Positions 36,694-48,681 of a stretch of 64,000 bases of DNA are shown one piece after another. Location of the stretch: the NCBI GenBank assembly GCA_005116835.1, contig SWDM01000014.1:1-64000 (forward strand), written 5' to 3'. The notes below the pieces were generated by a model. The model was not told where the DNA came from. It saw only the letters and a program-made list of their open reading frames with translations, and did no database searches. The position numbers and the translations under genes are program-made. Each line of letters opens with the position of its first letter. Within the stretch, counting starts at the first letter, position 1. The stretch is from Nitrospira sp. GTDB taxonomy: Bacteria > Nitrospirota > Nitrospiria > Nitrospirales > Nitrospiraceae.

Positions 36694-38538
36694 ATGGAAG
36701 AAGCAAACTCGAAACCATCGGACAATTTAAACATCGTTATCGTCGGGCATGTGGACCATGGGAAGTCCACCCTGCTGGGTCGTCTCTATGCAGACACAGG
36801 CTCGTTACCTGACGGCAAGCTTGAAAAGGTCCAAGCCATCTGTCGACAGCAGGGGAAGGAATTCGAGTACGCATTCCTGTTCGATGCCTTTCTTGAAGAA
36901 CAAGAACAGGGCATCACCATCGACACGGCGCGGACATTTTTTGGTTGGAAGGGCCGGCAATACATCATTATCGATGCTCCGGGGCACAAGGAATTTCTCA
37001 AGAACATGATCTCCGGAGCGGCCAGAGCCGAAGGGGCGTTGCTGCTGATCGATGCCGTAGAGGGCGTGAAAGAACAGTCGAAAAAGCATGGCTATCTCTT
37101 GTCGCTCCTGGGCGTACGGCAGTTTGCCGTCGTGGTGAATAAGATGGATTTGGTCGGTTATCGACAGGATGTGTTCGACGCAATCGAAAAGGAATATCGA
37201 GAATTCCTCGGGCAGTTCAAGGCGGTTCCACAACAGATCATTCCGGTCAGCGCCAAGCTGGGAGATAATATCGCCAACCGGAGCGAGCAGATGCCCTGGT
37301 ACAGCGGCCCCACCGTGCTGGATGCGCTCAGTGCCTTTCGGAAGGAACCAGGACGTTCCGAACAGCCGCTTCGATTGCCGGTTCAAGACGTGTACAAGTT
37401 CGACGCCCGCCGCATCATTACAGGGCGCGTCACAGCCGGACGTGTGAAGGTCGGCGACTCCCTGGTCTTTTCCCCATCGAACAAACGGGCCACGGTCAAG
37501 TCGATTGAAGCGTTCAACATTGATCCTCCGCCAACAGAGGGCCTGGCAGGCCAGTCAGTCGGTGTGACGCTCGATGAGCAGATTTTTGTGGAACGGGGAG
37601 AGGTCGCGTCACATCAAGACGAACTCCCGCTGGTGTCGACGGCCTTGCGCGCGAATGTGTTCTGGTTGGGCCGGAAGCCATTGGAGCGGGGACGGCGCTA
37701 TCAGCTCAGAGTGGCGACGAAAGAAGTGGATTGTGAGGTGGCTACTATTCACCGGATCATCGACACGATGGATCTGGCGCAGCAGCAAGGCAGCCATGTG
37801 GTGAATAAGAATCAGGTCGCTGAATTGACGATTCGGACCAAAACACCGGTGGCATTCGATCTCTCCGCTTCGTTTGAGTCGACCGGCCGGTTCGTGCTCG
37901 TGGACGAATATGACATTGCCGGCGGCGGCATCGTGACTGAACTGGTCCATGACGATCAGGAGTTTCTCCGCGAAGAAGCCAGGCAGCGAGATTTTGCCTG
38001 GGTGAAGGGCCAAGTCGGTGTCGAGGATCGCGCGCAGCAATATGGCCACCGAGCCGCCATTGTCCTGGTGACAGGCGGGCGGCATACAGGGAAGTCTTTC
38101 CTTGCCAGAACCATAGAAGCCAGACTTGTGGCGGACGGTCGGCATGCCTATTTGCTCGACGGGGAGAATCTCCGGCGAGGTCTCGATGCAGATCTTTCGG
38201 AAGGAGAGCGCGGCCAGGCGACCGAGATGGCTCGTCGCTATGGAGAGGTGGCACGGTTGCTGGTCGACACGGGGCTGATCGTCGTCTCGACGACCAATCC
38301 CTTCGGCTTAGCCTATATTGAAGCGGCTCAAACCATCAGGACGCTCGTGCATCCAGTCCCGGTCATTGCTATTCATATGAGTAAGACACCAGAAGAAGCC
38401 CCACCCAATACAGACATTGTGTTATCAGGCCCAGCAGACTTTGATGCGGCCACTCGAAGAATTCTTGATGAGCTCAAGCGTCGTGGGGTCTTGGCGCAGG
38501 CGATTGGGGCGAAGCCGATCTTTCAGTATTCAATTTAG
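36694..38538 (+). CDS. cysN: Bifunctional sulfate adenylyltransferase GTPase / APS kinase-like protein
   Basis: 614 residues from the ATG at 36694 (GGAG six bases upstream). Residues 1-430 are CysN, an EF-Tu-like GTPase with GHVDHGKS at 18-25, DAPGHKEF and NKMDLVG. The C-terminal 170 residues resemble CysC APS kinase, with a P-loop GGRHTGKS and DGENLRRGL. The kinase part is unusual: the typical FISPF loop reads STTNPFG, so kinase activity needs testing. It closes the operon; a family 1 repeat begins right at its stop codon. Confidence 0.9.
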
Positions 38539-38663
38539 CAGGATGCTCCAAAAGCCCGCCAGCTTCGTTCTCGGCTCATCGAAATCCTCAACGTGCCCCT
38601 GAAGGTACGCCTCCGGTTTCGATTCGCCTGCGGCCTCGCTGGACGACCTTTTTGAGCATCCTG
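38539..38663. repeat. Long palindromic repeat, family 1, copy B
   Basis: CAGGATGCTC (38539-38548) and GAGCATCCTG (38654-38663) are exact complements. The interior keeps CCGCCAGCTTCGTTCTCGGC, the GGTACGCCTC centre and CTGCGGCCTCGCTGG. It directly follows cysNC and forms the left edge of the accessory region. Confidence 0.85.
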
Positions 38664-38917
38664 CAGGGAGTTGCCCCAATGGTAGAGTTTGTCGCGCATG
38701 TTTCAGGAGAACCGATGGCGTGGTATGCGTATAGAAATTGGCAGATCCAGCCCTTATGCGGATCCGCCTAAACGTTGTTAGGCATCAAGACGATGCAGCC
38801 CACCTTGTCGACTGATCGCGCGCGTTCGAGCCAGGAAACATTCGCAGGGTTATGCGGGTTATGGCGGTGGGGGATGCACACACGTACCTTCAAAACTCAT
38901 TCTAGTCCCGAGTCTCG
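38664..38917. other. Left edge of the accessory region with an attC-like end
   Basis: No gene seen. Bases 38724-38783 share about 60 bases with 42178-42239 (GGCAGATCCAG and TAAAC-x-TWGTTAG parts) and end in GTTAGGC at 38777-38783, a perfect GTTRRRY core. The matching RYYYAAC half is not present upstream; the family 1 repeat abuts it. Confidence 0.5.
38777..38783 (+). other. attC/attI-like core GTTAGGC, first cassette boundary
   Basis: A GTTRRRY core 135 bases before the nuclease gene. Its complement GCCTAAC is approached by GCCCAAC at 41178, at the end of the same presumed cassette. Confidence 0.45.
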
Positions 38918-40291
38918 ATGGCGCTTTTCAGGCCGCGTCTAACCGATCATTACGGAATACTCGTCCCGCAGGCGGACTTGGATTTCGCGATTCCGTTTCT
39001 GGATGAGGATATTCCTTTGTATGCAGACCCCTTCCTGCTGTGGCGCTCGCCGTCGCAGCAGGATCAGGCTCTGCATGCCAGCCTGCTCAACGCATTCAAT
39101 CACCTTGGTCACCTGTGTGCGAGCGGCCAAAACGTGCAAGCAGTGACGACACTCATCGCCGCCTCTGAGTGCGATGAAGTCGGACTTGGTTCATCCGCCA
39201 ACAGACTGGGGAAAAGAATCGGCGAGGCGAAGGCGCAGGAGATCCTCGATCTGTTCAAGCTCATCCCTCAATATAATCGCGCCGGCTTCCGTCACTTCGA
39301 GGAAATCCAGTTCTTCGTGGATGGGATATCGAAGGATCGCATCAGCGACTTCACCTGCAGCTTCTTGAAGTCGTTTTTGATCGATTTCACCATCCAGCAG
39401 TGTGAGCAGCTCCGCATCCCGACGTCGCCGTCAGACATTCCTCGGCTCTATGACTCGCGCAAGAACCTATTTAAGGAGGCGCACGGCATTCCGTTGCCGA
39501 CCAATCCGAGGAACGGCAATCCGCTTCTCTTTGTGCCGAAACGCTGGCTGCGATTCGTTCCGTGGATCAGCTACGACGACTACTTCGAGAAATACTGTCC
39601 CCAAGATGAGATTTCCCACAAGCCAGAAGAGCTCACGCGCGTCGCCGTCCTAAACTACAACCGCGACCACTATGGGATGATCGAGACGTACGTGAAAACC
39701 AAGGAACGCACCCTTAAAGACTGCCACAACGATCCGCTCTTTGCGCAGATACCGATTACCTCGGCCAAGCGAAAATTCTCGGCCATCAAAAAGCTACCGA
39801 CCGGTAAGGACGACGGCGTCGACAAGCAGTACGAGGACCTCATGGGGCAGCTACTGCCGTCCTTGCTCTACCCGCAACTCGATTTTGCCCAGGATCAGGC
39901 ACGCACAGATAGCGGCGTAAGCATTCGCGACCTCATCTTCTACAACACTGCCTCGACGCCATTCCTCAAGGATATTTTTGATACCTACGGTTCCAGGCAG
40001 ATCACTATGGAGATGAAGAATGTTGCGGCGATCGAACGCCAGCACGTTGATCAGCTCAACCGGTATCTGGCCGACGAGTTGGGAAGATTTGGTCTTTTCA
40101 TCACGCGCCACCCCCTTAAGAGCGCCGAATTCACGAGGACAATCGACCTCTGGTCGGGCCAGCGCAAGGCGATCGTGACACTCACCGACGCTGACATAGC
40201 TCTGATGGTTGAGCTATTCGAAAGTAGACAACGCAATCCCATTGACGTTATCGTCAAAAAATATGGTGAATTCCGTGCAAAATGTCCCTGA
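38918..40291 (+). CDS. PD-(D/E)XK-like nuclease, first gene of a three-gene operon
   Basis: 457 residues, no signal peptide or membrane segment. Near residues 335-375 the order is IRDLIFYN, then a Gly-containing turn, ITMEMKNV, and QLNRYLADELG. This D...E-x-K pattern followed by a helix fits a PD-(D/E)XK nuclease core. The N-terminal 330 residues are not recognised. The next gene starts 29 bases before its stop and a third overlaps that by four, so the three proteins are made together. Context in a cassette array with toxin-antitoxin and SEFIR genes suggests a defence role; that is inference. Confidence 0.65.
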   Translation: MALFRPRLTDHYGILVPQADLDFAIPFLDEDIPLYADPFLLWRSPSQQDQALHASLLNAFNHLGHLCASGQNVQAVTTLIAASECDEVGLGSSANRLGKRIGEAKAQEILDLFKLIPQYNRAGFRHFEEIQFFVDGISKDRISDFTCSFLKSFLIDFTIQQCEQLRIPTSPSDIPRLYDSRKNLFKEAHGIPLPTNPRNGNPLLFVPKRWLRFVPWISYDDYFEKYCPQDEISHKPEELTRVAVLNYNRDHYGMIETYVKTKERTLKDCHNDPLFAQIPITSAKRKFSAIKKLPTGKDDGVDKQYEDLMGQLLPSLLYPQLDFAQDQARTDSGVSIRDLIFYNTASTPFLKDIFDTYGSRQITMEMKNVAAIERQHVDQLNRYLADELGRFGLFITRHPLKSAEFTRTIDLWSGQRKAIVTLTDADIALMVELFESRQRNPIDVIVKKYGEFRAKCP

Positions 40292-40688
40292 CTCGGTACT
40301 GAAATCCGAGGACGACGTCCGGGATCTCGAGAAGTTGGTCGTCCAGCTTCAAGGGTTGCACACCGAGATCTCTATCCTCGCGAAAAAGGCGCCGAACGAC
40401 GGGCTCAATCTGTTCAAGCTCAAGCTTGTCAACAACATCTTGGCCAAGGGGAACTCGATCCTGGTGGGGCACTACAAGCCACTTGAGAATTTCACCAACT
40501 TCGACGAGTCCGCGCTCCCGACGAACAGCGATGTGACTATGGTCTTGGCGCTGTACATCGAGCAAGCTGAGCGCTTCCGCTCCAACAACATGATCTATCA
40601 TGGCCACAGGTGGAAATACTTGGTTAAGGGAGCCGCAAGTCAAATTGAAGGTCGCCAACCGACGAAGATCGGAACGGAGAGAAAGTGA
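40263..40688 (+). CDS. Small partner protein, paralog 1
   Basis: 141 residues from the ATG at 40263, inside the end of the nuclease gene. The protein is helical and charged. Residues from LHTEISILAKKAPNDGLN, through KLVNNILAKGNSIL, to ALPTNSDVTMVLAL match the next gene position by position, so the two are tandem paralogs. No known domain recognised. The GTGA overlap with the next gene indicates translational coupling. Confidence 0.65.
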   Translation: MVNSVQNVPDSVLKSEDDVRDLEKLVVQLQGLHTEISILAKKAPNDGLNLFKLKLVNNILAKGNSILVGHYKPLENFTNFDESALPTNSDVTMVLALYIEQAERFRSNNMIYHGHRWKYLVKGAASQIEGRQPTKIGTERK

Positions 40689-41092
40689 GCAACGAGTACG
40701 AGTTCGAAGACGTAACGACCGATGCGGCGATTGCAACGTACCAGGCATCCACACCGATATTCGAAGGCCTCATCAAGGAGATCCGGGAGCTCTCGAGGAA
40801 GAAGCCCGACGCGACCATGAGCGCGAGCAAGGTCAAGATTGTTAATCGCGTACTTAACGACCTGTTGAACATCTTGAAAGCTGAGCCCACAGGCAAATAC
40901 CTAGAAATTCTCAACGACGAGTCTTTGCCACAAGTGAGTGACGCAGTGTTGACGATGGTTCAGTTCGAATCAGCGTTGGAAGCATTCAAGTCCAAGTACC
41001 GTCAATACGTCGACGATGAACGCCACTGGATTACTCAAGAGAATCTGGATGCATGGAATGCCGATTCGCAAGAGGAAGATTCAGAAAACTAA
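40685..41092 (+). CDS. Small partner protein, paralog 2
   Basis: 135 residues from the GTG at 40685 (GGAGAGAAA upstream, overlap GTGA with the preceding stop). It shares with the preceding protein the pattern K-KPD...K-x-KIVN-x2-L...ILKAEP...ESLP-x2-SD...FESALEAFKSKYRQ. It is acidic at the C-terminus. Unknown family; duplication within one operon suggests a heteromeric partner, inhibitor or sensor for the nuclease. Confidence 0.65.
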   Translation: MSNEYEFEDVTTDAAIATYQASTPIFEGLIKEIRELSRKKPDATMSASKVKIVNRVLNDLLNILKAEPTGKYLEILNDESLPQVSDAVLTMVQFESALEAFKSKYRQYVDDERHWITQENLDAWNADSQEEDSEN

Positions 41093-41177
41093 ACCGGTGC
41101 ATTTCAAGACAAAACAAGGGGTCAGGCCCCGTTTCTTTTCATCAACAGGCTGACTTGGATGTCATGACGGGGTTGTC

Positions 41178-41407
41178 GCCCAACAAGGCGCTCCAGCTGA
41201 CGCTTCGCGTCGTCTCAACGGCCCCGCGGATGGTCATCCGCCGGCTGGTCCGCGAAGCGCGTCCCAACCCAGCGATGAGGGTCAGGCATGAGTATTGACT
41301 TGTTGAACAGTGCTGCGGGCACTCATGTCGCGTCATCCTCAAATAAATCAATACACAGGCCTGACCCTCAGACTTTGGGATGCGGATACGCATAAACATT
41401 GTTGGGC
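41178..41407 (+). other. attC-like recombination site, probably interrupted
   Basis: R'' GCCCAAC (41178) and R' GTTGGGC (41401) are perfect complements, 230 bases apart. Removing the 95-base mini-element leaves 135, inside the usual attC size range. L'' GCTCCAGCTGACGC follows R'' after a five-base spacer, but its L' partner is not recognisable, so the site is degenerate. Confidence 0.4.
41276..41370. mobile_element. 95-bp mini-element with 12-bp perfect inverted ends
   Basis: TGAGGGTCAGGC (41276-41287) and GCCTGACCCTCA (41359-41370) are exact complements. The interior has no coding potential. The same 12-base end occurs alone at 44862-44873, and a related GGGGTCAGGCCCC lies at about 41118. 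It looks like a MITE or REP-type sequence. Confidence 0.5.
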
Positions 41408-41443
41408 CGCACGATGAACGCTTCCTGCCACACTTGACGCGTA

Positions 41444-41458
41444 TACGGCATTGCCGTA
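41444..41458 (+). promoter_or_regulatory. Palindromic operator candidate of the decayed toxin-antitoxin locus
   Basis: TACGGC (41444-41449), ATT, GCCGTA (41453-41458), a perfect inverted repeat 11 bases before the presumed toxin start. Toxin-antitoxin operons are commonly autoregulated at such sites. Confidence 0.45.
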
Positions 41459-41468
41459 CGCTGTTCGC

Positions 41469-41781
41469 GTGTTCACGGTTATCGAAACTCTACGTTTGCC
41501 CGCCTCGCCAGCAACTGCTGGAACGATGAAGATCGAACAAACTTCATTACCTTCATCGCCCAAATCCAGATGCCGGTGATGTTGTACCCGGGTCAGGAGG
41601 CATACGAAAAGTTCGTTGGGGGAGTGCTGGCCGTGGCAAGCGTGGTGGGGTGCGCGTGATTTACTTCAATCGCCTCGCCAATGGGGAAATCTGGTTACTA
41701 CTGGTCTACGGAAAGTCCATGCGTGAAAACATCCCGGCGCATGTGCTTCGTCAAATCAAAGAGGAGATCGAAAATGCGTAA
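41469..41781 (+). pseudogene. RelE/HigB-type toxin pseudogene, two frameshifts
   Basis: Read across three frames, the region gives FTVIET, then STFARLASNCWNDEDRTNF and ITFIA, then NPDAGDVVPGSGGIRKVRW and RGGVRVIYFNRLANGEIWLL, ending IPAHVLRQIKEEIENA. This is the order of a RelE/HigB-like toxin. Frame changes lie near 41486 (after IET) and near 41550 (before NPDAGD), consistent with two single-base losses. The end overlaps the antitoxin ATG by eight bases, as in intact loci. Confidence 0.75.
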
Positions 41782-42082
41782 AGCCCAACAGAAACCTACT
41801 GGTCGTCAGCCCAAAGTGGACATTGGCGCCGAGCTGCTCTCGTCGGTGCCGTAAATGAAGGCCGGTATCCGTGCTCGCGTCCATCGTCCCAAAATTTCAG
41901 AAGTCGCCCACGCTCGTTTGGTGTCCGAGCTTTCTCAAACCGCCTTTGCGGCACTGCTTGGAGTTTCTGTACGCACCCTCCAAGACTGGGAACAAGGTCG
42001 TCGCGAACCATCAGGGGCGGCAAAAACACTTTTCAAGATCGCCGAGCGCCATCCTGAAGTTCTGCAAGAACTCGTTGCGTGA
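41774..42082 (+). pseudogene. Helix-turn-helix antitoxin with an internal stop
   Basis: From the ATG at 41774 the frame runs MRKAQQKPTGRQPKVD and on to a TAA at 41852-41854, then continues in the same frame from an ATG at 41855. The downstream part (LSQTAFAALLGVSVRTLQDW, EQGRREPSGAAKTL) is a complete XRE-type helix-turn-helix with 75 residues. A single G-to-T change (GAA to TAA) would explain the stop. A shortened repressor could still be made from 41855. Confidence 0.7.
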
Positions 42083-42091
42083 AGTGGTACG

Positions 42092-42239
42092 GCCCAGCAG
42101 AAGATTTTCAGGTCCCTTAAATCTTCTCATTGGACCACCGTCAATTATGGGATATTGTTTACGATTATTGAAGGTGTGTTACGCGTATGGAAAATGGCAG
42201 ATCCAGTTCTTATATAGACCCGTTTAAACATAGTTAGCT
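42092..42239 (+). other. attC-like recombination site
   Basis: R' GTTAGCT is at 42233-42239. GCCCAGC at 42092-42098 is a possible R'', matching six of seven bases of the complement of the cassette's start core GTTGGGC (41401). The last 60 bases resemble 38724-38783. The length of 148 is at the upper end for attC sites. Confidence 0.4.
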
Positions 42240-42255
42240 CACTTTGGAGGTATCG

Positions 42256-43689
42256 TTGAGTCCGCGAGTGTTCATCTCCTACAGCTGGTCATCGCCGGGG
42301 CATCAAGCTCGTATACGCCAGTGGGCTGAGCAGATGGTGAGCGATGGTGTTGACGTCGTTCTCGATGTCTGGGGCCTAAAGGAAGGAGATGACAAATACG
42401 CGTTCATGGAAAAGATGGTCACGGATGAGTCTGTCACCCACGTGCTTGTCTTCTCCGATTCGGAATATGCCGCCAAAGCCGACGCAAGGAAGGCAGGCGT
42501 AGGCACTGAATCACAGATCATCTCGCGTGAGGTGTACGCGAAAGTTCAACAATCCAAGTTCATCCCCGTTGTCTGCGAATTTGAGGACTCAGGTGAACCA
42601 TTCCTGCCCACCTTCCTTAAGTCTCGCATCTGGATTGACTTCTCCAGCTCCGAGGCTGCGAACGAGAACTGGGAGCAACTGATCCGGCTCCTCTACGGCA
42701 AGCCAGCTCACGAGAAGCCGAGCCTGGGAAAGGCACCCACTTACATCACAACGGATGTCACTGTGCCCGCCAGCCCGGCGATTGCGAAGTTTGCTGCACT
42801 TAAGCAAGCTATCCTTCAGGAAAAACGGGGGCTGAAGCTTTATCGGAAGGACTTTCTCGACGCGTGTTACGTTTACTCGGATGCTCTGCGCATCAGAGAG
42901 CGGCCCGACATCACGAACATGGGCGAGCGGGTTTTGGAGGACTGCGGAAAACTTAAACTAGTGCGCGACCATATCGTGGATTGGGTCCTGCTCGAATCCG
43001 ATGCCAATCCCTCGGAAGAGTTCGCCGAGGCCCTAATTGCCATGCTTGAGCGGTTAGTTGAACTCAAGTCCAGGCCACCAGAAGTCAATTCTTGGAGCGA
43101 CGTTTGGTTCGAGGCACACCGTGTGTTTGTCTACGAGACCTTCCTCTACGTCGTAGCTGCTCTGATCAAGACCGACTCGTTCCGCATACTTCACCTTATT
43201 CTTACTAGCCACTATCTCCTGCCGGAGACGGCGGCGCAGGGATCCAACCGATTCGACACCTTCGATGCGTTTTACGACCACTCCGACACGCTACAGGTGC
43301 TCGCACCCGAAGGACAGAAGCTTTACGCACCTGCAGCAGAGCTCATTAAGCGACAGGCGGGTCGTACAGACTTGCCTTTCGCGGAGGTTATGCAAGCAGA
43401 ATTGCTTGTCCTGATGATGGCATTCATCACCGATGGTTCTCGATGGTATCCGCAGACACTTCACTATTCATCGCGTGCAGGCGCATTCCCGTTCTTCGTG
43501 AGAGCAGCACAGCGCCGCAACTTCCAGAAGCTTGCGAAGATCACGGGAATTGATAGCGCAGACAAACTTCGTGAGGCCGTGAAAGCGGGGCATCAGCGGT
43601 TGGGAGTGAACCAGTGGCACAACTTCTGGATGAGCGACCGATCGTTCTGGGGCAGTATGAATATGGATGCACTGGATACGCTTAAGTGA
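42256..43689 (+). CDS. SEFIR-domain protein
   Basis: 477 residues from the TTG at 42256, chosen because GGAGG lies five bases upstream. Residues 1-150 are a SEFIR (TIR-like) domain: RVFISYSWSSPGHQARIRQWA, VDVVLDVWGLKEGDDKY, SVTHVLVFSDSEYA, and IISREVY...FIPVVCEF. The C-terminal 300 residues are helical and unrecognised. TIR/SEFIR proteins in bacteria are frequent in immune systems, as signalling or NAD-cleaving modules. The stop codon's last base is the first base of the following attC-like site. Confidence 0.8.
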   Translation: MSPRVFISYSWSSPGHQARIRQWAEQMVSDGVDVVLDVWGLKEGDDKYAFMEKMVTDESVTHVLVFSDSEYAAKADARKAGVGTESQIISREVYAKVQQSKFIPVVCEFEDSGEPFLPTFLKSRIWIDFSSSEAANENWEQLIRLLYGKPAHEKPSLGKAPTYITTDVTVPASPAIAKFAALKQAILQEKRGLKLYRKDFLDACYVYSDALRIRERPDITNMGERVLEDCGKLKLVRDHIVDWVLLESDANPSEEFAEALIAMLERLVELKSRPPEVNSWSDVWFEAHRVFVYETFLYVVAALIKTDSFRILHLILTSHYLLPETAAQGSNRFDTFDAFYDHSDTLQVLAPEGQKLYAPAAELIKRQAGRTDLPFAEVMQAELLVLMMAFITDGSRWYPQTLHYSSRAGAFPFFVRAAQRRNFQKLAKITGIDSADKLREAVKAGHQRLGVNQWHNFWMSDRSFWGSMNMDALDTLK

Positions 43690-43745
43690 GCTAACAACAG
43701 TATGCAGCGGACGGCGCTTCGTGCCGCTGCTGCTGGGTGTTAGTC
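43689..43745 (+). other. attC site candidate after the SEFIR gene
   Basis: R'' AGCTAAC (43689-43695) is an exact complement of GTTAGCT at the beginning of the same cassette (42233). GCAGCGG (43704-43710) pairs with CCGCTGC (43724-43730), with ACG/CGT extending the stem past one bulged G. R' is GTTAGTC (43739-43745). Length 57, like the shortest known attC sites. Confidence 0.6.
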
Positions 43746-43850
43746 GTGAGTCGACATTGATTGACGGTCTACGCACCGCCGGAGGTCTTTGTGTCACGCA
43801 CTCGAGACGAGAGACGGAAACAATGGGGCAGACCTCTTAATCTCACTCTA

Positions 43851-44144
43851 ATGGCTATGCACAATTCTCCCCATCCCGGCGAGTTCATTATCCAGGCCTA
43901 TCTGGATCTCAACAATCTGAGCGGCCGCGAATTAGCCGGGAAGCTCGGTGTGGCTGCTTCAACGCTGAATCGCATTCTTACGGGTACCAGCTGCATCAGC
44001 TCTGAAATGGCGCTACGCCTATCCAAGCCGCTTGGCCGTTCTCCGGAGAGTTGGCTTGCCATACAGTCCAACCACGATCTCTGGCAAGCCAAGCAGCATG
44101 TGAAGCTCGGCAAGGTTGGGAAAGTCCGGCTCACAGCGGTCTAA
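43851..44144 (+). CDS. higA: HigA family antitoxin, without toxin
   Basis: 97 residues from the ATG at 43851. HPGEFIIQAYLDLNNLSGRE begins the HigA domain, followed by the helix-turn-helix VAASTLNRILTG and the GRSPESWLAIQSNHDLW end. No HigB toxin frame or remnant lies upstream within the cassette. The orphan antitoxin could neutralise an invading HigB. It lies alone between two attC-like sites. Confidence 0.85.
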   Translation: MAMHNSPHPGEFIIQAYLDLNNLSGRELAGKLGVAASTLNRILTGTSCISSEMALRLSKPLGRSPESWLAIQSNHDLWQAKQHVKLGKVGKVRLTAV

Positions 44145-44164
44145 GAGCCGCTTCTACGGAAAGG

Positions 44165-44773
<609 letters not shown>

Positions 44774-44775
44774 CT

Positions 44776-44846
44776 TAGCCTTAGGCATCGGAATGTGCGC
44801 CATCTGACGGTCTGGATGTGTGAAGTTTGACTCTGCTGAAATCCGA
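44776..44846. repeat. Imperfect direct repeat, left copy
   Basis: About 70 bases are shared with 48562-48632: CGGAAT-TGCGCCATCTG, CGG-CTGGAT, and GTTTGACTC...GAAATCC segments in the same order. The left copy begins inside the R' end of the attC site at 44724. Confidence 0.7.
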
Positions 44847-45118
44847 GAGTGAAGCAAAGGGGCCTGACCCTCATGGCGCTACCTTAAGCATCGGCCCAAC
44901 GCACGGTCACGGACTCCCCTCGCTCGGGATAAAGGCGCATCCCGGGAAATCGATTGCGAAACAATTGGAGGGCAGGGCGGGTGAAAAATATCTGCCAGTG
45001 GGTGGGCGGGTGAGAAGGTTGCGCGCACTCGAGGATCGACCAGGCTACCCTTGAAAATGAAATTGAGGATGAGGATAACGCGCAGAGTGGAGATCCTGCC
45101 AGCCGACGCGCTTGACTG
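44787..45118. other. Gene-free stretch after the last clear attC site
   Basis: 332 bases without a supported gene. It holds the left ~70-bp direct repeat, the 12-base GCCTGACCCTCA end at 44862-44873, and a fragment (about 44895-44930) of the family 2 repeat centre (CGGTCACGGACTCCCCTCG). A stray GCCCAAC core lies at 44894-44900. Confidence 0.4.
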
Positions 45119-45349
45119 TCAGGAAATCTGGTACCTCTGCCCAAGCGAGGGCGGAACGATGACTTTGCTGAGAAAGTTTTCACGCACTTGTTCGAGATGC
45201 CGCATGGCCTCGGTTGAGTAATAGGCCTTGCCACATTCGTCGCACACCTCCGTTACTACCGGGACCATGAGATGGTCGGTTCCGATTCGAAGTTCCGCCT
45301 GGACTGTTCCCGATTTGACCGTACCTCTCTTGCAGATGACGCAGTGCAT
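45119..45349 (-). CDS. MqsA/YgiT-type zinc-finger protein
   Basis: 76 residues from the ATG at 45349, with AAGGAGG eight bases upstream. CVICKRG and CDECGKAYYS form the zinc-binding CxxC pairs of YgiT-type domains, typically the N-terminal half of MqsA antitoxins. The helix-turn-helix half is absent. It is followed on the transcript by nothing recognisable. A remnant of another gene precedes it (45350-45487). Confidence 0.75.
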   Translation of the reverse strand: MHCVICKRGTVKSGTVQAELRIGTDHLMVPVVTEVCDECGKAYYSTEAMRHLEQVRENFLSKVIVPPSLGQRYQIS

Positions 45350-45487
45350 TAGGGCTTCCTCCTTCGTAAGTCCTGGTCCCATCGGTTTGGGTCCGGCTGG
45401 TAGGTCGTAATCACAATTAATTACTCCTCTTTCGATAATCTGCAAGACTTCTTCGACGTGAATGCGGGCCAAAGGCTCTTCGTCCAT
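45350..45487 (-). pseudogene. Possible DUF4258-toxin remnant, in frame with the zinc-finger gene
   Basis: The frame runs from an ATG at 45487 into the zinc-finger gene. Its IHVEEVLQIIERGVINCDYD stretch resembles the middle of DUF4258 proteins, the usual partner of YgiT-type antitoxins. What should follow is missing. A deletion within an ancestral toxin-antitoxin pair would explain this; the match is by eye only. Confidence 0.3.
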
Positions 45488-45990
45488 CTTCTATCGAGCG
45501 TGGTCTGTGAATCGGCAAGAGTTTGCACATCGACGAACTTCAGCAGCATTCATCTATCGGTCGTTCCTGTCCTGGTTCGGCAACGTCAACGGCGTAAGCT
45601 TATGAAATAGAGTCCAGATTGAGGCAATGGCAACAGACTTTCAAGGAGGGTCGTTGCTGAACGTGAGATGTCTGCAAGACCGACCGCTGTAAGAAGCGGG
45701 GTGGGTTTGGAGGGGTGAAGAACTCCACGCAATCGGTTCCGTCTCGTACTTGACGAAGCCTGTGAAGCGGTTGAGAATGTGCCGCGCTTATTCATGCGCT
45801 TCTGGGTCGGAGGTATCCCCCGGACTGCTATAGGCAGCCGGGAACTCAAACGTTCGGCCAAGAAAAATGAGGAATCATGTCCGCGCACATGCACTCACCA
45901 CCGGCGACCATTCACAGGATTATTGTTGATATTCCAAACAAGACACCCATTCCCGATTCCGGTTCTTCTCTCTGCACTAAGGAGGCCAAC
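45488..45990. other. Gene-free stretch before the exported protein
   Basis: 503 bases without a supported gene; the frame open from 45877 lacks a ribosome site. A hairpin CCCGG/CCGGG followed by AACTCAAACGTTCGGCC at about 45850-45866 looks like a worn attC end, but has no R'' partner. Confidence 0.35.
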
Positions 45991-47403
45991 ATGTTCATGT
46001 TTCTACCACGTACGTTCCTGGCCATTTTTGCGACTGTTCTCGCCGTTAGTATGGGACTCGCCTCGTCCGCTTTTGCTAAAGACTTCGAGGTCTGGCTCGT
46101 GGATCAATCGAACTCCAATGGCAAGACCTTCGGCGGAACGATTCATATTTTTGATGGCGATGACCTCAAGGGGAGGGCCGCTTCGTCGGTAACTCCCACC
46201 GACGTTCTCGATCTTTCGGGAGCCACCTCGGCTTTATGCTCGGCGAGCACCGGAGTCAATCCTGTTCGCCCGCATATGATTCAGTTTAACTCCACCCAAA
46301 GCCACGCTGTTCTGAGCTTTGTCACGAGTGGCCATGTCGTGATTTTCAATGCGGCAACTCGCGCGCCTGTGGCGTGCCTTCGCATGTCAGTCGGTGCTGG
46401 CGGCGCTCGTCAAGCGCACGCGGCGTTTCCTGCTCCGGATGATTCGTACATTCTCGTATCGAACCAGAATGGGAAATTGCTCGAACGTATCAACGCCAGC
46501 TTTGCCACTAACACGTTTACTCTGGATACTCTGGCGACGATTAATCTAGCGACGTGTATAACGCCCAATGGATTTGCTTGTCAGGATGCGGTACGGAGGC
46601 CCGACAACGCGCCGATTGTCCCGGTGGTAGATTCGAGCAGCACGCTGGGATTCATCACATTGCGTGGCGGAGGATTGTTCGTGGTTAATCCCAAAGCCAC
46701 GCCGATGCAGATTATTGCCGAGTATGATCGCGAAACGGTGCGCGGCGCAGGCTTTGCTGGCGCCCAAGCTGCTGGGACAATGTATGTAAATTCAGGCGGT
46801 GGCTCGGTACTCGATCCGTATAGATTCGATGTTTATGCCTTTCCTCTCTCAGGCTACAGTGCCGCAAACTTTCCCAATACTCCGACGCCTGATCTCTTGC
46901 ACTCAGACGATGGCGGCCCGCGGGATGCTCATGGGTTGGTGGTCACAAAACGCGAACGCTTTGTCTGGGTGCTTGATCGCGATCGGAACGTCGCGGAGAT
47001 CATTGATACAGACACAGGCGCGAACATTAACACGGTCGATTTGAATAAAGGCGGGCCCGCAGGATTGGCTCCAGATCTCGCCGGTCGGTCTCCTTCCGGG
47101 AATCGCATCTTCGTCTCCCTGCGTGGCCCGAACCCGCTCAGCGGGGATCCGCATCTCTCTACAGGCAGTACGCCTGGACTCGGCGTCATCCAAGTGAATA
47201 AGAAGGGGAAGAACGGTAAGTTGAAAAATATCATTCCTATCCACAACATCGATGTTGGCGGTGTTGAGCGCGCGGACGCGCATGGCATTGGTGTACGATT
47301 GAAAAAAACGGCGCGTTCCCAAGGGGGCGATATGCACGATCCAGATGAGGAGGAGGATGAAGACAAGGAAGAGGACAAGGATAAACCGATGACGAAAAAA
47401 TAA
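45991..47403 (+). CDS. Exported propeller-like protein with acidic C-terminal tail
   Basis: 470 residues from the ATG at 45991 (AAGGAGG six bases upstream). Residues 1-29 form a signal peptide ending SSAFA. The body has repeated strand-turn units (HAVLSFVTSGHVVIFNAATR, DDSYILVSNQNGKLLERI, RFVWVLDRDRNVAEIIDTDT) like YncE-type beta-propellers. The last 25 residues are an Asp/Glu/Lys tail. Binding partner unknown. It lies among toxin-antitoxin genes, with no link to them visible. Confidence 0.75.
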   Translation: MFMFLPRTFLAIFATVLAVSMGLASSAFAKDFEVWLVDQSNSNGKTFGGTIHIFDGDDLKGRAASSVTPTDVLDLSGATSALCSASTGVNPVRPHMIQFNSTQSHAVLSFVTSGHVVIFNAATRAPVACLRMSVGAGGARQAHAAFPAPDDSYILVSNQNGKLLERINASFATNTFTLDTLATINLATCITPNGFACQDAVRRPDNAPIVPVVDSSSTLGFITLRGGGLFVVNPKATPMQIIAEYDRETVRGAGFAGAQAAGTMYVNSGGGSVLDPYRFDVYAFPLSGYSAANFPNTPTPDLLHSDDGGPRDAHGLVVTKRERFVWVLDRDRNVAEIIDTDTGANINTVDLNKGGPAGLAPDLAGRSPSGNRIFVSLRGPNPLSGDPHLSTGSTPGLGVIQVNKKGKNGKLKNIIPIHNIDVGGVERADAHGIGVRLKKTARSQGGDMHDPDEEEDEDKEEDKDKPMTKK

Positions 47404-47580
47404 GGATCGAGCTCAGGCAGACGCCCTTGTGGTCCTCATACAGGGAAACCCGCTCCGGTTGGACCTATTTTATCCGGCGAGGCGTGAGCAAGGGTTGCAG
47501 GGAAGTTTCTGCCTGACTGGATGCTGAAAAATGGGTGACGGGGTAGCTGGGATGATCCCCTTGCTCTCGGAACAGAAGAG

Positions 47581-47677
47581 GGGATGGAGGCTGATGATCG
47601 TCTGTGCTCGCGCAACGCGCGGTCGCGGACTCCCCTCGTTGGACGCGCGCAGTGGAAGATCAATCAGCCTCCATCCC
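47581..47677. repeat. Palindromic repeat, family 2, copy 2
   Basis: GGGATGGAGGCTGATGATC (47581-47599) pairs with GATCAATCAGCCTCCATCCC (47658-47677) with one or two interruptions. The centre, CTGTGCTCGCGCAACGCGCG and GCGCGCAGTGG, matches copy 1 at 33830. Confidence 0.8.
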
Positions 47678-47723
47678 TAAAAAGATATCGAGCAAGCCTG
47701 GAGGGATATTAGGAGGGGCGGCG

Positions 47724-47764
47724 TTGACGTGAAATGGCAACGATGTATATTGTTATCGTATACA
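47724..47764 (+). promoter_or_regulatory. Promoter and operator of the second BrnT/BrnA pair
   Basis: TTGACG (47724), 18 bases, TATTGT (47748). TGTATA (47744-47749) and TATACA (47759-47764) form a perfect inverted repeat over the -10 box, consistent with autorepression by the toxin-antitoxin complex. Confidence 0.45.
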
Positions 47765-47777
47765 GACTGGGTCGTCG

Positions 47778-48098
47778 ATGAAGAGACTGCTAGGGCTTGA
47801 AGGATTTGATTGGAATGAGGCCGGTCTCACGAAGAATTGGGAAAAGCATCACGTTACACCGTGGGAATGTGAACAAGCATTTTTTAACCTTCCGCTGGTT
47901 GTGGCGGAAGACTCAGCCCACTCCACAATTGAGTCGCGCTATTATGTGTTGGGGCAAACCGACGGAGGGCGGCAACTCTTTCTCGTTTTTACCATCCGAA
48001 AGCGGAGGATTCGTGTTATTTCGGCGAGGGACATGAGTGCGAAGGAGCGGAGGACTTACGATGAGCAAATTAAAACCAAGACCGACGTTCAAGAATGA
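47778..48098 (+). CDS. brnT: BrnT family toxin, second copy
   Basis: 106 residues. FDWNEAGLTKNWEKHHVTPWE, RYYVLGQTDGGRQLFLVFTI, and RIRVISARDMSAKERRTYDE are the three BrnT blocks. It is a predicted ribonuclease and is distinct in sequence from the BrnT at 44251. The antitoxin gene overlaps its end by 38 bases. Confidence 0.9.
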   Translation: MKRLLGLEGFDWNEAGLTKNWEKHHVTPWECEQAFFNLPLVVAEDSAHSTIESRYYVLGQTDGGRQLFLVFTIRKRRIRVISARDMSAKERRTYDEQIKTKTDVQE

Positions 48099-48351
48099 AG
48101 CGCAGGAAGCCGTTTTCTGGGCCTCCCACGACTCAACGGATTATATCGATTACGCGAAAAGTCGCAGGATGATCTTCCCAAAGCTCAAACCATCAACGGA
48201 GACGATTTCGCTCCGGCTGCCAAAATCTCTTCTAGATCAACTCAAGACATTGGCCAACAAGCGCGATGTTCCTTATCAGACGCTGCTGAAACTCTTCCTG
48301 CTTGAGCGAGTGCAGTCGGAACTGCAGATCAAGACTGCCAAGGCCTCCTAG
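48061..48351 (+). CDS. brnA: BrnA/CopG-type antitoxin, second copy
   Basis: 96 residues from the ATG at 48061. TFKNEAQEAVFWASHDSTDYID, then ETISLRLPKSLLDQLKTLANKR, is the BrnA pattern with a ribbon-helix-helix DNA-binding end. It overlaps the toxin gene, so the pair is translated together. Confidence 0.88.
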   Translation: MSKLKPRPTFKNEAQEAVFWASHDSTDYIDYAKSRRMIFPKLKPSTETISLRLPKSLLDQLKTLANKRDVPYQTLLKLFLLERVQSELQIKTAKAS

Positions 48352-48681
48352 GGGTCGAAACAAGGGGGCAGACTCCTTTGACCCCCTCCTGGGCGATCTT
48401 GGTGCAAGGTTTCCGCGAAACGACAATGCGCCCAACCGTCCCATCGATCGGACATCTTCCGGCCTCCAGCCACCGCTTCGCATCGTCTAATGGCCCATGG
48501 ATGCAGCGGATTTTCACTGCTCAGACATAGTTTGCTCCGCGGCCGCCGCTGATCTGCGGGGCCTTTAGCCGTCGGAATCTGCGCCATCTGGCGGACTGGA
48601 TCGGTGGAGTTTGACTCCCCGGAAATCCCTGTGTTACGGTCAACCTCTGTGTAATCGCACAGTTAGCTAAGGAATCACGTT
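48352..48681. other. Gene-free stretch at the right edge of the accessory region
   Basis: 330 bases without a gene. They hold GGGGGCAGACTCC-type palindromic bases after the brnA stop, an attC-like fragment (GTCTAAT near 48486, GCAGCGG and CCGCTG arms), and the right copy of the ~70-base direct repeat at 48562-48632. Confidence 0.4.
48562..48632. repeat. Imperfect direct repeat, right copy
   Basis: Counterpart of 44776-44846. It begins at CCTTTAGCCGTCGGAAT and ends about 50 bases before the mrp gene. The two copies bracket the zinc-finger, propeller and second BrnT/BrnA genes. Confidence 0.7.

Follow-up and report, generated by a model that had tools for sequence, protein, structure and literature searches.

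A catalogued phage defence candidate in Nitrospira sp.: a PDC-M36 cassette with a predicted PD-(D/E)XK nuclease and two small paralogous proteins

Within the 64,000 nucleotides of a Nitrospira sp. contig analysed here (the window), three adjacent genes, named A, B1 and B2 in this study, form a genuine, intact copy of PDC-M36, a candidate listed in PADLOC-DB 2.0.0. A defence role of this cassette is well supported, while its mechanism is something we infer. On the whole, we lean towards seeing the trio as a stand-alone, horizontally spread cassette directed against phages or plasmids, in which A would act as a nuclease effector that is held or licensed by B1-B2. The features concerned are listed in Table 1.

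Table 1. Positions, strands and supporting evidence for the cassette and its surroundings, numbered along the window.
Feature	Position	Strand	Evidence
Gene A, predicted nuclease protein, 457 aa (PDC-M36A)	38918..40291	+	PADLOC E 2.2e-225, residues 1-457; AlphaFold pLDDT 91
A residues 8-235, N-terminal domain without a name	38939..39622	+	homology to distant proteins with another nuclease half; no Pfam match
A residues 286-445, PD-(D/E)XK nuclease domain	39773..40252	+	residues invariant in 82 sequences; core topology; fusion in L008
A codon D338	39929-39931	+
A codon E365	40010-40012	+
A codon K367	40016-40018	+
Gene B1, small helical protein, ORF of 141 aa (PDC-M36B)	40263..40688	+	PADLOC PDLC04599, E 1.5e-42
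Gene B2, paralog of B1, 135 aa (PDC-M36B)	40685..41092	+	PADLOC PDLC04600, E 3.4e-39; paralogy; model pLDDT 94.6
Variable insertion between cysN and mrp, with the cassette inside	38574..48608	.	near-empty site in G008/L135, other congeners
bSEFIR-type defence gene, neighbour of the cassette, not a member	42244..43689	+	PADLOC bSEFIR, E 1.1e-93

Identity and composition of the cassette

In PADLOC, PDC denotes a phage defence candidate. PDC-M36 (models PDLC04597-04600) aligns with A from end to end, and its two B models correspond to B1 and B2, which lie directly downstream of A and are covered over most of their length. With an A + B make-up equal to that of the window and no difference in gene content, the window cassette is one further copy of this candidate. 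The first-pass annotation had proposed an undescribed system and, for a nuclease combined with a pair of small proteins, a new arrangement; neither proposal can be upheld, the trio and its one-A, two-B layout both being in the catalogue already. According to the citing text of a 2026 paper (PMC12988326), PDCs were introduced in a preprint by Payne et al. from 2024, which it gives as their source, and are still unvalidated. PADLOC candidates are themselves picked by genomic context. The papers searched contained no mention of PDC-M36 and no functional or experimental report on it; the cassette is a catalogued, apparently untested defence candidate, for which the term “undescribed” is not tenable. 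Beyond the catalogue entry, the present analysis adds the insertion site, the modular nature of the N-terminal domain of A and the strictness with which the three genes keep together.

Other resources gave the proteins no name. Neither Pfam nor NCBIfam revealed a match above cut-off for A, B1 or B2; in PHROGs, A matched families of unknown function, B1 and B2 were matched weakly, and no usable function emerged. PDB sequence searches with the cassette proteins gave nothing credible and hence no solved relative by sequence.

All three reading frames, of 457, 141 and 135 aa, were confirmed, as was the overlap of 4 nt between B1 and B2, the latter starting with GTG. The reported overlap of 29 bases between A and B1, counted from an ATG at 40263, is doubtful in the light of the homologs, in which B1 begins at a median of 11 nt past the stop of A, mostly preceded by a Shine-Dalgarno-like stretch. 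At this usual position the window has CTG (40299), and the in-frame alternatives ATG 40263 (29-nt overlap) and GTG 40275 (17-nt overlap) both lack a Shine-Dalgarno-like stretch, so that B1 may start at any of 40263, 40275 and 40299. The two small proteins, both of them helical, proved to be paralogs as had been proposed, as evidenced by BLASTP (E 2e-7, 32% identity over 88 aa) and profile-profile comparison (probability 99.8%, E 3e-29).

Seventy-five loci, spread over about a dozen phyla, drawn from GTDB genomes, plasmids and IMG/VR contigs and counted without seven odd or duplicate ones, have the order A, B1, B2, which bears out the reading of the trio as a fixed three-gene unit. In 72 of the 75, the gap between A and B1 is no larger than 20 nt. 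A fourth conserved partner was sought in 86 loci and not found. Small genes away from A, named in the first-pass annotation as an outcome speaking against its reading, were not encountered on plasmids, on viral contigs or in 385 genomes, a contig cut inside A excepted: searches with B alone led to three plasmid records and six viral contigs, all of which also carry A, and, among 385 sampled genomes from the class to which locus L013 belongs, to the seed and to that cut contig. Conversely, an intact A without any B was never seen, except at a contig end. The three proteins have mutually consistent distance matrices (Mantel r 0.67-0.78, null maximum 0.14), which co-inheritance by itself would also produce.

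Some loci depart from this composition. Three from Acidobacteria (L049, L060, L065) have a single B, one (L046) has two B1-like genes, and in another (L014:7758-9319), where A and B1 are intact, a transposase gene encoding HTH and DDE_3 domains disrupts B2. In two further loci (L084, L086), A contains an in-frame stop and B1 and B2 are intact. Loci of the last kind, together with the constant company of at least one B for every intact A, would suit a toxin-antitoxin or addiction module, in which A would be toxic alone, B1 and B2 would be its antitoxins, and the main effect would be maintenance of the element and not defence against viruses. The B proteins are small and mostly acidic (median pI 5.3) and some copies are plasmid-borne, as such a module would have it. 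We nevertheless consider this explanation improbable, as A persists next to a disrupted B2 in L014 and next to one B in the Acidobacteria, and as most loci, with other defence genes next to them, lie on chromosomes or large contigs.

The nuclease protein and its domains

The PD-(D/E)XK core, which had been proposed for A on the basis of a D...E-x-K motif (IRD338 ... ME365MK367), is supported by conserved residues as well as by predicted topology. In an alignment of 82 sequences, 81 of which share about 50-73% of their residues with the window protein, E306, D338, E365, K367, Q379 and Y383 are invariant; with D338, E365 and K367 kept in 82/82, the motif is therefore not a product of chance. The AlphaFold model (mean pLDDT 91.4, with a loop at 330-335 under pLDDT 50) places the conserved residues in an alpha-beta-beta-beta-alpha-beta core, predicted as helix 298-317, strands 321-326, 338-343 and 361-366, helix 374-383 and strand 391-395. 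RPB5, Nt.BspD6I, FokI and MspJI, all of which we take to have the PD-(D/E)XK fold, were the leading Foldseek matches, the best having an E of 1.2e-3 and none reaching E 0.001. A viral fold library also gave RPB5-like and restriction-enzyme matches, none of them significant, and Pfam PDDEXK_3 scored 14.6 bits, under its cut-off of 22 bits. A match to a non-nuclease family, named beforehand as a finding that would overturn the assignment, did not occur. The nuclease fold of A is well supported, and A is predicted to be active as a nuclease. At the C-terminal end of the protein, Cys-Pro (40283-40288), mostly extended to Cys-Pro-Ser in homologs, hardly varies across the 82 sequences, and P457 does not vary at all.

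Residues 8-235 of A match a different family of about 490 aa and a 695-aa protein of Calothrix. Fourteen residues of this N-terminal domain (D31, D37, P38, E84, G91, G98, E128, D140, S143, D144, L154, T158, L193 and P207) are kept in 27/27 sequences, 15 near and 12 far, the acidic ones being D31, D37, E84, E128, D140 and D144. Members of the ~490-aa family, which are borne by plasmids and viruses, include proteins from Sinorhizobium (L005:4917-6395), Roseomonas (L145:4001-5470) and Paenarthrobacter (L147:3962-5452); their N-terminal domain is homologous to that of A, whereas their C-terminal half, unlike the nuclease half of A, has its own VD-x-K ... E-x-K motif, PD-(D/E)XK-like as read by eye. 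They have no Pfam name, and no B genes were annotated or found adjoining those inspected. Since it is shared with distant proteins carrying a different nuclease half, the N-terminal domain is a reusable module. The copy from Paenarthrobacter adjoins methyltransferase, helicase and GIY-YIG genes.

The C-terminal domain of A also has relatives in another setting. ATPases encoded on enterobacterial plasmids and in one Klebsiella phage record (examples being L008 and L154) end in a homologous nuclease domain (hhalign E 8e-11) and carry an AAA/ORC-CDC6-like ATPase in place of the N-terminal domain of A; many plasmids from enterobacteria have stretches related to it. Shedu, a single-gene PD-(D/E)XK defence nuclease with DUF4263 and without small partner genes, offers an analogy, as its C-terminal nuclease likewise sits behind a separate N-terminal part. 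In contrast to Shedu, the cassette has small partners, and DUF4263 was absent among the Pfam matches of A up to E 1.

The distant resemblance of A to Nt.BspD6I, FokI and MspJI, and an N-terminal module joined to two nuclease types, could also point to modification-dependent or methylase-free restriction. In that case, a feature of foreign DNA would be recognised by the N-terminal domain, with B1 and B2 aiding A in binding or cutting and the host staying unharmed; no recurrent methylase was found in the unit among the 86 loci, as a methylase-free system would have it. However, the fold matches are below significance and Pfam and PDB sequence searches revealed no known DNA-binding domain in A, B1 or B2, and we regard restriction of this kind as unlikely.

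Genomic neighbourhood and insertion site

With genes called by a simple longest-ORF rule and a matching threshold of E 1e-15, the nearest genes on both sides of the cassettes (134 proteins) matched 226 PADLOC families, a number of families and not of proteins that is inflated by overlapping models and behind which stand about a dozen or more proteins, judged from the names listed, versus 4 families for 134 control genes, whose lineage match is only rough because of their mixed sources (the genus and order of the window, genomes sampled from L013's class, and a few other A-bearing genomes). PD-T4-6, Drt2, KwaB, HerA, restriction-modification and bSEFIR are among the families matched. This enrichment, together with an insertion hotspot, substantiates the defence context suggested by the first-pass annotation. 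A DNA repair or replication accessory unit, which umuC-type genes adjoining A on two plasmids might suggest, is highly improbable, because such a partner is not general, no neighbour family occurs in more than five of the 86 loci, and the strong defence-gene enrichment and patchy distribution are unlike those of a repair gene.

The hotspot lies between cysN and mrp. The distance between the two genes is 0.2-0.4 kb in six genomes of the genus sample (G001, G006, G007, G008, G011, G016), 10.1 kb in the window and between 0.85 and 11.5 kb in other congeners, and flank alignment revealed a near-empty site in G008. Elsewhere, the interval harbours an AbiU/AIPR gene (G018, L134) or a helicase-like gene whose product has relatives in DISARM and BREX families (G009, L128); in the window, it also carries bSEFIR and BrnT-type toxin genes. 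The BrnT-type genes are located at 44230-44529 and 47778-48351, the second being overlapped at its end by a gene for a CopG-type antitoxin, and at 41855-42082 there is a gene for a short HTH protein resembling the C-terminal part of the antitoxin MqsA, for which no toxin partner was identified. A segment following cysN (38538-38670) has ends forming an inverted repeat (aggatgctc ... gagcatcct); the near-empty site in L135 likewise has the gagcatcct end.

Full copies of A are patchy, amounting to 2 in 61 genomes; the only other one in the order of the window (G057) is 53% identical. In the tree, the window protein is placed among Pseudomonadota (98/93). The rarity of full copies and this placement indicate that the cassette was horizontally acquired.

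Possible mode of action

In the anti-phage or anti-plasmid reading that we prefer, A would be the effector, its C-terminal domain acting as a metal-dependent nuclease, probably on DNA, and its N-terminal domain bearing a putative site for recognition or for binding a ligand. The two small proteins would most likely form a hetero-oligomer on A, either suppressing its activity or licensing it for foreign DNA. Upon infection, A would be released or recruited, and phage DNA or all cell DNA would be degraded. Nuclease activity, an A-B1-B2 complex, the direction of control and the trigger are thus all things that we infer, binding and control of A by the small proteins being suggested by fixed gene order and paralogy. 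A broken A with intact B genes, seen twice, fits inhibition, while an A with a broken B2 or a single B implies that the full B pair is not always needed; inhibition and licensing both fit, and the loci do not tell them apart. Fold comparison of B2 gave only weak helical-bundle matches (proteasome activator Bpa, Foldseek E 0.18), and no function was therefore assigned to it. More tentatively, and with rather less confidence than in the reading above, we consider that the N-terminal half of A, with its strictly conserved acidic residues, might be a new enzymatic or signal-binding domain joined to several different PD-(D/E)XK nucleases and, at the same time, B1-B2 a new hetero-oligomeric controller, duplicated from a single-B form still present in Acidobacteria.

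For the genus, the interval between cysN and mrp is a cargo-swapping site and a place to look for further defence genes. For the family, a bare catalogue entry becomes testable: the three-gene composition is kept over about a dozen phyla, the predicted catalytic residues have been named, the culturable genera Proteus, Shewanella, Marinobacter and Halopseudomonas carry homologs, and the uncharacterised N-terminal domain of A offers conserved residues for mutation.
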